This document shows positions 8,772 to 13,760 of a stretch of 64,000 nucleotides of DNA, piece by piece. The stretch covers positions 5,401,501 through 5,465,500 of the forward strand of contig NZ_CP150207.1 in NCBI RefSeq assembly GCF_037969765.1. Direction: 5' to 3'. The DNA comes from Paenibacillus sp. FSL W8-0186 (GTDB lineage: Bacteria > Bacillota > Bacilli > Paenibacillales > Paenibacillaceae). Positions within the stretch are counted from its first letter, which is position 1, and each line of letters starts with the position of its first letter. The notes beneath the pieces were generated by a model that worked only from the letters and a program-made list of their open reading frames with translations, did not search any database and was not told where the DNA came from. The translations under genes and the position numbers were made by a program.

Positions 8772-10466
8772 CTAGAAATCGATGGTTCTTCCGCCCCGTT
8801 TATAACGCACGTCATCGTCCCCTTGATCCGGACTGCCCGGAGCCGAATTGCCGCCGTCCAGAACAGCCTCTTCCTTCACATAGTCCTCCAAGTCTTCCTT
8901 CGGCGTTGCGGTCACTGCGCGCACATTGGCCCATTCGCGGATCGCCCGGATTTGCTCGGCTTGGGTAATCGACAGCGGCACCGTGTTTATGATGGCCCGC
9001 TCGAAATCCTCCAATCGAATCGAACGGTCCACCGCATAAGCTTCAAACAAAGCATCAATGACCAATTGTTCGATCTCCGCTCCGACGAAGCCTTCGCATT
9101 TTTCCGCCAAATCGTCCAGCACCTCGTCCGTTAACTGGAAATCCCCAATGACCTCAGGGTGCGTCAGGCGTCTGCCCATATGAACCTTTAGAATTTCTTT
9201 CCGCTCCCGCTTGGTCGGCAGGTCAACAAAGAAAATTTCATCAAAACGGCCTTTCCGCATAAGCTCCGGAGGCAATCCGGCAATGTTATTGGCCGTGGCT
9301 ACCACGAACACCTGGCTTGTCTTCTCCTGCATCCAGGTCAGGAACTGGGCAAACACACGGGCGGATGTCCCGCCGTCGCCGCCGCTGGAAGTCGCACTGA
9401 AGCCTTTTTCGATCTCGTCGATCCACAAAATGCAAGGCGAAATCGCTTCGGCGGTCTTGATCGCTTTGCGCATATTCTCTTCGCTGCTGCCTACGAGGCC
9501 GCTAAAAATTTTTCCAATATCGAGCCGCAGCAGAGGCAGCTGCCACATGGAGCTGATGGATTTACTGATCAGGCTTTTTCCGCAGCCCGGTACGCCTGTG
9601 ATCAGCACCCCTTTAGGAGAAGGCAGGCCATATTTGCTGGCCGAATCCAGCCAGGATTTATTCCGTCTCGTCAGCCAGCGCTTCAGGTTTTCTAAGCCGC
9701 CGACATCCTCCATCCTCAGTTCGCTGCGGATAAACTCCAAAATGCCCGTCTTCTTGATAATTTGCTCCTTCTCTTCGAGTATAACCTCGACATCCCGGAT
9801 ATCCAGCTGGCCGTCTTCCACCATCGCACGGGCAAATGCATTCTCGGCCTCGGATAACGTCAAGCCAAGCGCCGCTTTGGCGATGCGCTCCCGCTCCTCG
9901 GCCGTAACTTCGATTTGAATGCGTCCTCTATTCTCGTTAACGGCAATCATTTCATCCAGCACGGTTTTGATTTCGTTAAAGGACGGCAGTTCAAAATCAA
10001 CGATCGTGATATCCTTCTGCAGTTCCTCCGGCAGGACTGGAAACGGCGATGTAAAAATGACATTGATCGGGTTCGGGTTCTGCTTAATGCGGATCAATAT
10101 GTCACGCAGCTTCCGGATAACCTGGTAATCCGCCGCTCTCCCTTGACCTCCAAAATAAATATGGAAATCCTGCAGCACGACAATACAGGGACTATCGTAT
10201 TTCTCAATGAACTCCAGCGCCTTCAAAGGCTGCTTGGTGTCATCGCGGGAATGGCCGCTCACATCCACGATCCCCGTCGTCATCCTCCAAACCAGCACTT
10301 CCCTTGGCGTCTTGATCAGCGGAATATCCTGCGCAATGGAGCGAATGACTGACATGGCGCGGTCTTCCTCCCAGGTCTGGATATATAGGTAAGGGAACCT
10401 TGCCTTTAGCAGATTGGCCAGCAAGGTTCTGATTTTCGATGGCGTTCCTGATACGGGTACAGTCAT
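8772..10466 (-). CDS. AAA+ ATPase, Ycf46-like
   Basis: A 564-residue AAA+ protein. The N-terminal region (PYLYIQTWEEDRA; then VVLQDFHIYF) matches the degenerate first ATPase-like region of the Ycf46 family. The C-terminal AAA+ domain has Walker A GVPGCGKS, Walker B ILWIDEIEKG, sensor 1 ATANN and arginine finger RKGRFD. The ATG at 10466 has GGAGGCAGG upstream; a TTG at 10484 would overlap that RBS. It lies 24 bases after the HhH membrane protein gene, so the two form an operon. Both proteins end in G-R-(T/I)-I-D-(F/Y), here GGRTIDF after an acidic Pro/Gly/Asp linker. The substrate it remodels is unknown. Confidence 0.85.
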   Translation of the reverse strand: MTVPVSGTPSKIRTLLANLLKARFPYLYIQTWEEDRAMSVIRSIAQDIPLIKTPREVLVWRMTTGIVDVSGHSRDDTKQPLKALEFIEKYDSPCIVVLQDFHIYFGGQGRAADYQVIRKLRDILIRIKQNPNPINVIFTSPFPVLPEELQKDITIVDFELPSFNEIKTVLDEMIAVNENRGRIQIEVTAEERERIAKAALGLTLSEAENAFARAMVEDGQLDIRDVEVILEEKEQIIKKTGILEFIRSELRMEDVGGLENLKRWLTRRNKSWLDSASKYGLPSPKGVLITGVPGCGKSLISKSISSMWQLPLLRLDIGKIFSGLVGSSEENMRKAIKTAEAISPCILWIDEIEKGFSATSSGGDGGTSARVFAQFLTWMQEKTSQVFVVATANNIAGLPPELMRKGRFDEIFFVDLPTKRERKEILKVHMGRRLTHPEVIGDFQLTDEVLDDLAEKCEGFVGAEIEQLVIDALFEAYAVDRSIRLEDFERAIINTVPLSITQAEQIRAIREWANVRAVTATPKEDLEDYVKEEAVLDGGNSAPGSPDQGDDDVRYKRGGRTIDF

Positions 10467-10490
10467 TGGCGTTCCTGCCTCCAAATCAAA

Positions 10491-11483
10491 TTAATAGTCG
10501 ATGATCCTGCCTGACGCAGGTGAATTTATCGGAGCATTACTCTTATGCGAGAAAACAACAAGGGGCGCGATCCGATCAAGGGTATACTTTTTCAGCCCCA
10601 TGACATCCGAGAAATGCTCTAAGGAATTGAACCCTCCCAGCTCCTCACGCTTCATCATGACACGTTTGGCGAGGATCGCTCCGATTCCCGGAAGCGAGGC
10701 AATTTGAGCCTCAGATGCCGTATTGATATCCATGCTGCCCCCCTCCAGCAAGGGCCTCTTCGTCAGCGGCGGCATACTGCCGGATGAAGGAGGTTCGTTA
10801 TCCATTGACGAGGACATACCTCCAAATGGAGGCGGTACGGCGCCCTGGGGCGGAGGCATCCAGCCTGATGGAGGTGGTACATTACCCAGCGGCGGAGGCA
10901 TGCTGCCTAATGGAGGCGGCATGTGACCCACCGGAGGCACGCTTCCAAATGGAGGCGGCACGGTGCCCTGTGGTGAGCTCATACCTTCTGGTGCCGGCAT
11001 ATTGTATGGCGGCAGCTCTGCCGTCCTTGGCACTGGCGGCATATTATGCGGCAGCGTGCGGCCATAAGGCGCTGCATTGAAGTCGCTCTGACTCTCCTGC
11101 CACATTTGCTGCGATCTCTGCTGTTCCAATTCTTTAATTGCAGCAAGCTGAACCAAATAATCCTGGCGAATAGTGAAGGCATGGATAATAGATACAATCC
11201 ACATCGTAAATACAATGCTCGCGCCAACCCCAGAGCCTGACATCATAAACGCCCCTATAAGCAGCCCAAGATACATAAACCCGAAATTGCGCCAGACGTG
11301 ATTCTTCACTCTGATCCCGGCATATAAAAAGGCCACAAAACTAGTAAGCCCCAGAGGCACAAAGGTAGCCGCAATCCACCAGCTTGCCGTGATTCCTGGA
11401 GATTGGCCTTGGTTCGTATATTTCTGACTCACACTACCCCCCCTTACTGCAGTTCCTCGATTATGTAGTACTTTATAGCTCAT
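10491..11483 (-). CDS. Membrane protein with proline-rich repeats and a ComEA-type helix-hairpin-helix domain
   Basis: A 330-residue protein of unknown role. Residues about 33-110 form three or four membrane helices. Then comes a coiled, Gln-rich segment, about 110 residues of MPPPxGxVPPP-type repeats, and a ComEA-like HhH domain (MDINTASEAQIASLPGIGAILAKR starts it; key residues N-x-A, LPGIG and the second G-F-x-S turn). HhH domains of this sort bind DNA or proteins. The C-terminus is SGRIIDY, nearly the same as the AAA+ protein encoded next. GGGTGAT precedes the ATG. The order HhH then AAA+ in one transcription unit suggests that the ATPase works on or with this membrane protein. Confidence 0.8.
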   Translation of the reverse strand: MSYKVLHNRGTAVRGGSVSQKYTNQGQSPGITASWWIAATFVPLGLTSFVAFLYAGIRVKNHVWRNFGFMYLGLLIGAFMMSGSGVGASIVFTMWIVSIIHAFTIRQDYLVQLAAIKELEQQRSQQMWQESQSDFNAAPYGRTLPHNMPPVPRTAELPPYNMPAPEGMSSPQGTVPPPFGSVPPVGHMPPPLGSMPPPLGNVPPPSGWMPPPQGAVPPPFGGMSSSMDNEPPSSGSMPPLTKRPLLEGGSMDINTASEAQIASLPGIGAILAKRVMMKREELGGFNSLEHFSDVMGLKKYTLDRIAPLVVFSHKSNAPINSPASGRIIDY

Positions 11484-11576: not shown

Positions 11577-11645
11577 TAAAAAAAACACCCTCTAGAACTT
11601 TATCGGAAGAATCAAGGAGATTCTCCAATAAACCTTTCAAGGGTG
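11577..11645 (-). terminator. Terminator of the receptor/peptide unit
   Basis: On the minus strand CACCCT...TTTAT pairs with ATAAA...AGGGTG, enclosing an inner GGAGAATCTCC hairpin, and is followed by eight T. It lies 31 bases beyond the peptide stop codon. Confidence 0.7.
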
Positions 11646-11675
11646 CGTATCACGATAATTCAATTGCCCTACAGC

Positions 11676-11816
11676 CTATCCTCCCAGGCCGTGAATCAGC
11701 GGTTTGATTCCAAGTTCGTTATACATGACGCCCGCCAGACCTCCAACCCCATCAGAAACAGCCAAAATTAATACAAGACTGCATACAATCAACAGCACGG
11801 ATTTACCTTTTCTCAT
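11676..11816 (-). CDS. 46-residue secreted signal-peptide precursor (AloP/Phr-like)
   Basis: A small gene overlapping the 3' end of the HTH-TPR receptor gene by 14 bases. The product has a basic start (MRKGKS), a hydrophobic core (VLLIVCSLVLILAV) and a short tail ending GIKPLIHGLGG. That is the plan of Phr, NprX and AloP precursors: export signal first, mature signalling peptide at the C-terminus. AGGTGCAAGGAAA lies upstream of the ATG, and a T-tailed hairpin follows the stop. Size, position, overlap and layout all argue that it encodes the cognate peptide of the receptor. Which C-terminal residues form the mature signal is a guess; PLIHGLGG or shorter is plausible. Confidence 0.75.
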   Translation of the reverse strand: MRKGKSVLLIVCSLVLILAVSDGVGGLAGVMYNELGIKPLIHGLGG

Positions 11817-13191
11817 GGTTTCCTTGCACCTCGCTTATTAATTTTGCATACCTGTTCTTCATTTCCGGCGTTGCCCAAGCCCGATACTTCTCAAATAACC
11901 CCACGCACCGAATAACGACCGATTCGTTATAGAAATCAACACAGCAGTCCAAGCAGGCCAGTATATAATTCATTCCTGTCTCAGCACGTTCTGTAGACAA
12001 ATAGTAGGCAGCCAGCTCCGCCAACAATCGCGCATGCTGATCGGCTGCAATCTGCGCATGATAACTCCCGAAGGCATGCCCGCGTCCCTCGAACTTCAAA
12101 TGCGGGCCCAAACGCTCCAGAATATCATCCACCTGAAAATGATGGCGGTTCGCCGCCTCCGTTATTTTCAGAAGGGCTGACACCCGCTCGCTATCATGAG
12201 CAGCCGCATACTTTACGTAATCCGGCAATATTTCCAGCTGCCCGGCCATCAGTCGATATAGGCAGGCATTGGCCCGGCCCCATTCCTTAAACTGATTCAT
12301 GATGATGCGCTCTGTCTCACTGCAGCTCTGCACCCAGCTTGGCTCCGTATATAACGAAACGAAGTCAAGGGCCTGCTCGTAATCTTCTCTTGCCTCACAA
12401 ACGTTAGCCTGCAGCAAATAGGCATAGAGAATGTAGAAAAGCAAGGGCCTTCGCGCCTCTTGTTGAATGGACGCAGATGGAAGCTCGCTTCGCGAATTCG
12501 CACTGGGACTCATTGCATACTGAATCCTCGCTTTACGCCCCAGTTCCTCCGCGAGTTCCCCAACTTTAGCCCAACGCTGATTGGCAGCATAGATATCCGC
12601 CAGGCTTTTAAGGGCATCTAATTGATCCCGTTCTTCCAAGCGCTCTACGTAAGGCTCAAAAGAAGCCGCCAAATTCATATTGGCCTCCCGGTCATCCCCC
12701 AGATGAATCGTAAATAGACGATACTGACAGAGAGCCAATCGTTCGGAATGCTGGTATTTCTCACTCTCGGCGACACATTGGTATAACAACGATGCCGCAT
12801 CCTTCCTTCCTGCCTGATACCACTGCTCCGCCAGCTCAAACAAATATGGGGCGTAGGCTAAATTGTCCATGATTGCATGAATGATTCGCTGGATGCAGCC
12901 TAGCTTGTCCAATTCAGCACAGCGCCGAAGCAGTGCCCCTAGCCTGCGCCAATTCGGCGACGACTGTATCAGGCACTCCTCAACATATAACTCGTATAAG
13001 CTGCCCTCCGCCAACCCCATACCCGCACTAATCCGATCGACCTGAAGCATCGACATCGGCTTGCGGTGATTAATCAGGCTGCTAAGCGTCCCCGCATTCA
13101 CACCTGAAAAATTCGCAAATTGATGAAGCGTCAGGCCTTTCCCTTGAATATAATTCTCCAAAAGCTGTCGGATCGTGGTGGCTGGTTGCAT
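11803..13191 (-). CDS. HTH-TPR peptide receptor/regulator (RRNPP type, AloR-like)
   Basis: A 462-residue regulator. The N-terminus (about 5-60) is an XRE-type helix-turn-helix: LTLHQFANFSGVNAGTLSSL, then INHRKPMS. The rest is an all-helical repeat region with TPR character (for example LALCQYRLFTIHLGD, LDALKSLADIYAANQRWAKV), the length and plan of NprR, PlcR, AimR and the AloR receptors described in Paenibacillus. GGAGGTTCTATCC precedes the ATG. The overlapping downstream peptide gene strongly supports peptide control. In this family a re-imported short peptide binds the TPR groove and changes DNA binding. Its site may be the long-spacer inverted repeat 125 bases upstream, in front of the divergent XRE gene. 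Confidence 0.85.
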   Translation of the reverse strand: MQPATTIRQLLENYIQGKGLTLHQFANFSGVNAGTLSSLINHRKPMSMLQVDRISAGMGLAEGSLYELYVEECLIQSSPNWRRLGALLRRCAELDKLGCIQRIIHAIMDNLAYAPYLFELAEQWYQAGRKDAASLLYQCVAESEKYQHSERLALCQYRLFTIHLGDDREANMNLAASFEPYVERLEERDQLDALKSLADIYAANQRWAKVGELAEELGRKARIQYAMSPSANSRSELPSASIQQEARRPLLFYILYAYLLQANVCEAREDYEQALDFVSLYTEPSWVQSCSETERIIMNQFKEWGRANACLYRLMAGQLEILPDYVKYAAAHDSERVSALLKITEAANRHHFQVDDILERLGPHLKFEGRGHAFGSYHAQIAADQHARLLAELAAYYLSTERAETGMNYILACLDCCVDFYNESVVIRCVGLFEKYRAWATPEMKNRYAKLISEVQGNHEKR

Positions 13192-13272: not shown

Positions 13273-13292
13273 GGTATATGGAAAATTATACC
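13273..13292. promoter_or_regulatory. Small palindrome upstream of the receptor gene
   Basis: GGTATA-TGGAAAAT-TATACC, between the divergent receptor and XRE genes. Possible operator; no promoter box can be assigned with certainty. Confidence 0.35.
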
Positions 13293-13315
13293 TTAAAATT
13301 CAGGTAATTGCAATA

Positions 13316-13352
13316 TTAATACGACTTTTAATGTAACTGACAGTCGTATTAA
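13316..13352. promoter_or_regulatory. Long-spacer inverted repeat between divergent regulators
   Basis: TTAATACGACT-N15-AGTCGTATTAA, perfect 11-bp arms. RRNPP receptors such as AimR bind two half-sites with a long spacer, so this is a good candidate operator for the HTH-TPR receptor. It ends 51 bases before the XRE start. Confidence 0.6.
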
Positions 13353-13403: not shown

Positions 13404-13760
13404 GTGGAAAATACTATGGAATTCTCCGTATCTATTACACAGCGAATCGGTGCAAAAATCCGGCTACATCGCGTGGCAAAAAACTGGACACAAGAGGAAT
13501 TAGCCGAAATGATTGGCTCTACGGCATCCTATATTGGTCAAATTGAACGCGGCGAAAAAAACATTCGCCTTGATACAGTTGAAAAAATAATTACTGCTTT
13601 AGATTTATCTATTGAGCAGTTATTTGATAATGAACATGAAGCCTTTTTGCAATCTAAGAAATGGGTTTGGGATAGTATTAATCTGATGCTTCAGCAGGAT
13701 GAACGGACTCAACGTAAAGTTTATCGTGTGATTCGGGAGATGTTGTCGGAAGAGGATTGA
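13404..13760 (+). CDS. XRE-family transcriptional regulator
   Basis: A 118-residue protein with one helix-turn-helix at residues about 15-70: WTQEELAEMIGSTASYIGQI, followed by ERGEKNIRLDTVEKI. The C-terminal 45 residues are helical without a known domain. GTG at 13404 lies very near AGAGAGG; ATG at 13416 is the alternative. It is divergent from the HTH-TPR receptor and may be its target or a partner. The gene looks more A+T-rich than its neighbours, which hints at separate acquisition. Confidence 0.85.
   Translation: MENTMEFSVSITQRIGAKIRLHRVAKNWTQEELAEMIGSTASYIGQIERGEKNIRLDTVEKIITALDLSIEQLFDNEHEAFLQSKKWVWDSINLMLQQDERTQRKVYRVIREMLSEED

Follow-up and report, generated by a model that had tools for sequence, protein, structure and literature searches.

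A probable AloR–AloP quorum-sensing pair beside a divergent Xre-type regulator gene in Paenibacillus sp. FSL W8-0186

Does a receptor gene which ends inside a small open reading frame (ORF) form, together with that ORF, a peptide quorum-sensing pair, and if so on what would such a pair act? The question is raised by a locus of Paenibacillus sp. FSL W8-0186 which lies in a stretch of 64,000 nucleotides, referred to below as the window. A sequence-only reading had described here two genes sharing 14 bases; this overlap, the layout and both translations were confirmed, and the two ORFs are transcribed in the same direction (Table 1). The small gene product begins with basic residues, continues with a hydrophobic core and ends in GIKPLIHGLGG. 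Likely counterparts of the ribosome-binding site and the T-tailed terminator ascribed to this gene were recovered as well. A Shine-Dalgarno-like GAGGTG lies within the 3' end of the receptor gene, 10 nt 5' of the precursor ATG, and the same element is present 5' of many homologous precursors, while the hairpin 3' of the precursor, followed by a run of 8 U, has a folding energy of -29.9 kcal/mol versus a shuffle mean of -15.3 (z -5.1). The promoter-like sequence, of a kind no more frequent than in shuffles, ends 93 nt from the receptor ATG.

Table 1. Features of the locus, numbered from the first base of the window
Feature	Position	Strand	Remark
aloR-type receptor, 462 aa	11803..13191 (coding 11806..13191, stop codon 11803-11805)	-	N-terminal HTH, C-terminal degenerate TPR-like repeats
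aloP-type precursor, 46 aa	11676..11816	-	hydrophobic export-type core; predicted signal in C-terminal LIHGLGG
overlap of receptor and precursor genes, 14 nt	11803..11816	-	
GAGGTG, probable precursor ribosome-binding site	11827..11832	-	read by eye
U-tailed hairpin, likely terminator for the pair of genes	11578..11646	-	folding versus shuffles
promoter-like TTGCAA-17-TATAAT, 10/12	13285..13313	-	5' of receptor gene
inverted repeat TTAATACGACT-N15-AGTCGTATTAA, candidate operator	13316..13352	.	shared intergenic region; shuffle test
small Xre/HTH_3 regulator, type A, divergent	13404..13760	+	candidate third module member

As described in PMC7425212, AloR receptors combine an HTH with TPRs, are followed immediately downstream by an ORF of 32–50 aa, and are nearly restricted to the Paenibacillaceae, the family from which the present locus also comes. 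The AloR13 reference was found via a primer printed in that paper, which has a site, with a single mismatch, in 8 of 394 genomes from the family; we took one of these eight loci (L096), which encodes the published 23-residue AloP13 pro-peptide alongside. The window receptor is 31.6% identical to this AloR13 orthologue (query residues 1–460 of 462, subject residues 1–454 of 467) and lies within the limits of 30% identity over 80% mutual coverage which serve to recognize known receptor clusters (PMC10075063), a rule applied here to one protein. Because of this homology over nearly the full length, the gene layout, the peptide plan and the taxon we regard the locus as very probably an AloR–AloP quorum-sensing pair, which is what the sequence-only reading had proposed. 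Homologues of the receptor occur in 25 of 39 related genomes, 24 of these from the genus itself; a single genome has as many as 17 matches.

The receptor had also been called a TPR protein, and this claim stood as regards the fold but not as regards Pfam. Searched as a single protein the receptor gave no match over the cut-off in Pfam and NCBIfam (no Pfam HTH was found, and the best Pfam TPR model was TPR_7 with E 0.59), weak matches only in PHROGs, and a best E of 0.13 in a sequence search of solved structures. PF18768 [RNPP_C], which we take to be the model of the PlcR/NprR type, matched nothing in the genome even at E values up to 10. A profile of the receptor family matches the HTH structures of R-M controller proteins and of SinR, and an AlphaFold model of the receptor (71 rows; pLDDT 88, pTM 0.83) is nearly all helical, with the HTH first (helices 7–57). 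Foldseek comparison of this model with the PDB placed TPR structures near the top, with modest E-values and low TM-scores; among the 50 matches listed PlcR with PapR7 [3u3w] ranks 33 and RapH [3q15] ranks 50, and neither AimR nor NprR is named. AimR is also unnamed among the 50 matches listed from a fold search of viral models, in which a 425-aa protein stands out [E 1.5e-11, S5MC02]; a 2025 study assigns AimR and AloR to a common structural clan (PMC12700828). Since most AloR receptors escape TPRpred (14 of 16 were missed, mostly through repeat divergence; PMC7425212) and the fold model is that of a helical-repeat protein, the failure of the Pfam TPR models, an outcome which the sequence-only reading had named as refuting, is not decisive. 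By its modeled fold, and not by a Pfam profile, the window receptor is an HTH plus TPR-like helical-repeat protein.

The same genome contains two further Alo loci, the precursors of which end in SNSALHGT and GLEHGGGY. A plasmid of P. polymyxa ATCC 842 (L091, 2501–3971) specifies an AloR of 39% identity; its precursor, 43 aa long and encoded by an overlapping gene, ends in GYIGGA and is annotated merely as a hypothetical protein. Brevibacillus phage SecTim467 (L092, 3968–5484) possesses an AloR homologue with 27% identity to the window receptor, an overlapping annotated ORF of 45 aa which has neither a hydrophobic core nor an HG tail, and a Spo0E-like gene just upstream.

Whether the small ORF is a gene was approached through 97 homologous receptors with enough downstream sequence; receptors of less than 400 aa were excluded, and the list of homologues (108 matches before) was collapsed where the last 200 residues were identical. 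A hydrophobic small ORF starting between -110 and +20 of the receptor stop is present at 75 of these loci and missing at the matching position in 22, and 59 have a small ORF with HG among its last 8 residues; on the reverse strand of the same 97 loci the hydrophobic ORF appears 17 times and the HG tail never. A more permissive definition, with [HN]G close to the end and a greater distance allowed, takes in 69 of 100 receptors at least 400 aa long. An ordinary HTH regulator followed by a chance hydrophobic frame, a kind of frame which arose in 169 of 970 dinucleotide shuffles, is made very unlikely by conservation, the HG tail having arisen in only 3 of the 970, and we give this explanation practically no weight.

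A small gene of the LIHGLGG type, located 3' of an orthologous receptor and with IHGLGG unchanged, is carried by 14 of 40 genomes of the genus, and in this the expectation of a conserved small frame in close relatives was borne out. The 40 genomes comprise 24 from a first search and 16 from a second (E up to 1e-120), with duplicates between collections removed and G053 counted together with P. woosongensis 12CR55 rather than as an extra carrier. In a tree of 94 receptors, constructed by a quick method, the 12 with a precursor ending in [LF]IHGLGG make up exactly one clade (SH-aLRT 99); carriers G022 and G042 are additional to these 12. While the identity of the carrier receptors to that of the window falls to 47%, the last six precursor residues are invariant, and the last six codons of the 12 tree carriers display 219 synonymous and 0 non-synonymous differences in 396 comparisons. 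The hydrophobic core and the linker between core and tail vary. On this comparative sequence evidence the small gene is real. An AloR locus outside the genus (L025) has a precursor in which SHGDGY occurs twice, possibly a two-signal precursor.

Invariance of the last six residues, behind a linker which varies, makes IHGLGG or LIHGLGG the most likely mature signal; a signal containing HGLGG had been suggested before, and it gains support from this invariance and from AloP13, the active signal of which is SHGRGG (PMC7425212). One might instead picture an AloR-like receptor beside a membrane microprotein or leader which acts inside the cell and gives rise to no secreted signal. A product of 46 aa with a strong hydrophobic core would suit that role, and secretion is predicted here from the sequence; the constancy of the C-terminal six residues behind a variable core and linker nevertheless argues for a processed signal, as does the mass spectrometric finding that 9 of 14 AloP peptides of P. 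polymyxa yield fragments without the N terminus in the medium (PMC7425212), and we consider an intracellular role very improbable.

For the AloR–AloP pair, then, one would assume that the precursor is exported and its tail cut to IHGLGG or LIHGLGG, that this peptide re-enters the cell via an oligopeptide permease, and that it binds in the helical groove of AloR, which would alter the action of the receptor on its target promoters. In Alo13 the free receptor activates its target and the peptide turns the target off (PMC7425212); following this precedent, the free window receptor would presumably activate its target and the peptide would shut it off.

Which genes might be controlled in this way? 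Two neighbors, specifying a helix-hairpin-helix (HHH) protein (10491–11483) and an AAA ATPase (8772–10484), are unlikely as conserved targets: they are absent beside the pair in five clade genomes (P. ihumii, G010, P. oralis, P. senegalimassiliensis and G021; the P. fonticola contig ends early). Both genes adjoin the pair in G022, and their DNA is also present in P. woosongensis 12CR55. The HHH protein is ComEA-like with a proline-rich repeat region, and is 73% identical in G022 versus 99% and 97% for its two neighbors, a value which the repeats may depress in the alignment. A Spo0E-like target was rejected as well, since none of the genome's Spo0E-like genes is within the window. We would point, with due reserve, to the intergenic region between aloR and the divergent Xre gene as the likeliest local target.

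A small divergent Xre (HTH_3) gene starts 166–244 nt upstream of aloR in all 14 carriers; that of the window specifies 118 aa counted from a GTG, and a later ATG start is possible. When the longest divergent ORF was scanned in a named collection, Pfam HTH_3 was found in the window and at 9 of 9 carrier loci, versus 2 of the other 70 AloR loci, of which 58 had a divergent ORF to scan and 12 had none. Twelve further loci gave Xre at 6 of 6 with LIHGLGG and 0 of 6 others, five of the former six being genomes already counted and G042 alone new. The association is not exclusive to the LIHGLGG clade. In the first set of relatives, which held 99 receptors with enough upstream sequence (8 in the clade and 91 outside), Xre lies within 700 nt of 8 of the 91, and of the 8 AloR13 orthologue loci at least 7 have a divergent Xre gene next to the receptor gene. 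Neither an Xre partner nor a palindrome was found for AloR in the parts consulted of PMC7425212, PMC10075063, PMC12700828 and PMC9765709, nor such an arrangement in the titles or abstract openings of the papers listed for Paenibacillus RRNPP systems and divergent Xre genes. The association of Xre with the AloR lineage of the LIHGLGG signal is new here.

The carrier Xre proteins are of four types, with 17–37% identity between types and at least 66% within them (13 sequences, namely 11 of the 14 carriers and two copies from elsewhere; the remaining three carriers were placed separately). Type A is found in the window and P. ihumii; type B in P. fonticola, G042, G021 and P. rubinfantis; type C in P. 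oralis, G010, P. senegalimassiliensis, P. sanguinis, P. brevis and P. antibioticophila; and type D in P. woosongensis 12CR55 and G022. G053, which is labeled as the same species as the window, has type D against type A in the window, and in P. fonticola the type B gene is followed by a type A remnant which contains a stop codon. The Xre regulator has thus been replaced on more than one occasion, the signal pair staying in place. Between the window and P. woosongensis 12CR55 DNA similarity ends about 33 nt before the aloR start.

In the 212-nt xre–aloR intergenic region of the window the inverted repeat has an arm of 11, a length reached in 1 of 2000 dinucleotide shuffles. As judged by eye from an alignment, 9 of the 11 pairs are kept in P. 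ihumii, one via changes on both sides, and two are broken. ATACTA-N8-TAGTAT is present at 6 of 6 type C loci and a GTAC-based palindrome at 3 of 4 type B loci, the fourth having a mismatch, and neither of these two palindromes was found at the two type D loci; these patterns were defined after viewing the same sequences, and other inverted repeats with arms of 6–7 bp are present in the regions. The palindrome tracks the Xre type and not the AloR tree. A partly independent check is offered by two near-identical type B xre genes well away from aloR: the palindrome is complete (14 bp) in one and kept as its inner 12 bp in the other. Second xre copies within the clade loci do not have the palindrome. 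Most simply, the palindrome would serve Xre as its operator, and the Xre gene would go together with receptors of the AloR type, though mere linkage could also keep palindrome and gene together. An AloR operator is not our first choice because P. fonticola belongs with the window by its AloR, whereas its Xre type and palindrome place it with P. rubinfantis.

Type B Xre genes from elsewhere in the family, outside the genus, lie divergent to AloR-like proteins without an HTH (L202–L206). The latter frames, of 223–313 aa, match the C-terminal part of the AloR profile only, and the two which were scanned gave sub-threshold TPR matches. The palindrome is present at three of these five Xre genes, the three being nearly identical to each other, and absent at two. 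At another locus (L212, in G043) a type C Xre gene and its palindrome stand beside an aloR split into several frames.

The gene order and the conserved DNA suggest that AloR–AloP and the divergent Xre gene may constitute a three-gene switch, in which Xre would repress or gate the promoter region that the divergent genes share, while AloR, together with its peptide, would act with or against Xre. Such a switch is compatible with the AloR–AloP reading, is modeled on the action of a Rap-family anti-repressor against Rco in pLS20, and has in our opinion a serious chance of being correct, if a smaller one than even. The constancy of the divergent gene at the LIHGLGG loci speaks for it, but Xre also occurs at some receptors outside the clade and yet is missing from most AloR loci. 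The retention of a partner through four dissimilar types, with a palindrome following the partner rather than the AloR tree, favors it too; against this, the palindrome adjoins the Xre gene and both were perhaps swapped as a unit, its patterns were written post hoc among other short inverted repeats, and type D has no counterpart. The type B genes facing HTH-less AloR-like proteins are a further point in favor, weakened by the two of five which do not have the pattern. It is possible, though less likely than not, that Xre and its palindromic operator are swapped as one cassette, even among strains of a single species, with the signal pair retained. If that is true, one shared peptide would be read through different local repressors and could give species- or strain-specific outputs.

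IHGLGG is a well-supported candidate signal, identical in 14 genomes of one genus, and cross-species signaling can therefore be tested with one synthetic peptide. The Xre gene with its defined palindrome is a likely place at which the LIHGLGG lineage of Alo acts or is controlled.

With NprR, PlcR, Rap and AimR the locus shares a cytoplasmic helical-repeat receptor and an adjacent exported precursor, both as predicted here; it differs in that these four are absent from its sequence matches to solved structures and in that RNPP_C has no match in the genome. Rap proteins are not known to have an HTH, whereas the window AloR has one. RapLS20–Phr/Rco of pLS20 resembles the window in that an RRNPP-type peptide system lies beside, or acts on, an Xre-type regulator, a peptide-controlled Rap-family anti-repressor there relieving the Xre repressor Rco (PMC3814332). 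It is a functional parallel only, the Xre link in the window being drawn from gene order and conserved DNA. AloR13–AloP13 of P. polymyxa shares with the window a homologous receptor, an overlapping downstream precursor and a C-terminal HGxGG. The two differ in signal (SHGRGG versus IHGLGG), in receptor sequence to the extent given above, and in that the Alo13 target is a downstream Spo0E-like gene (PMC7425212), whereas the three such genes of the present genome all lie elsewhere. The pair is a new example of the already known AloR–AloP communication system.
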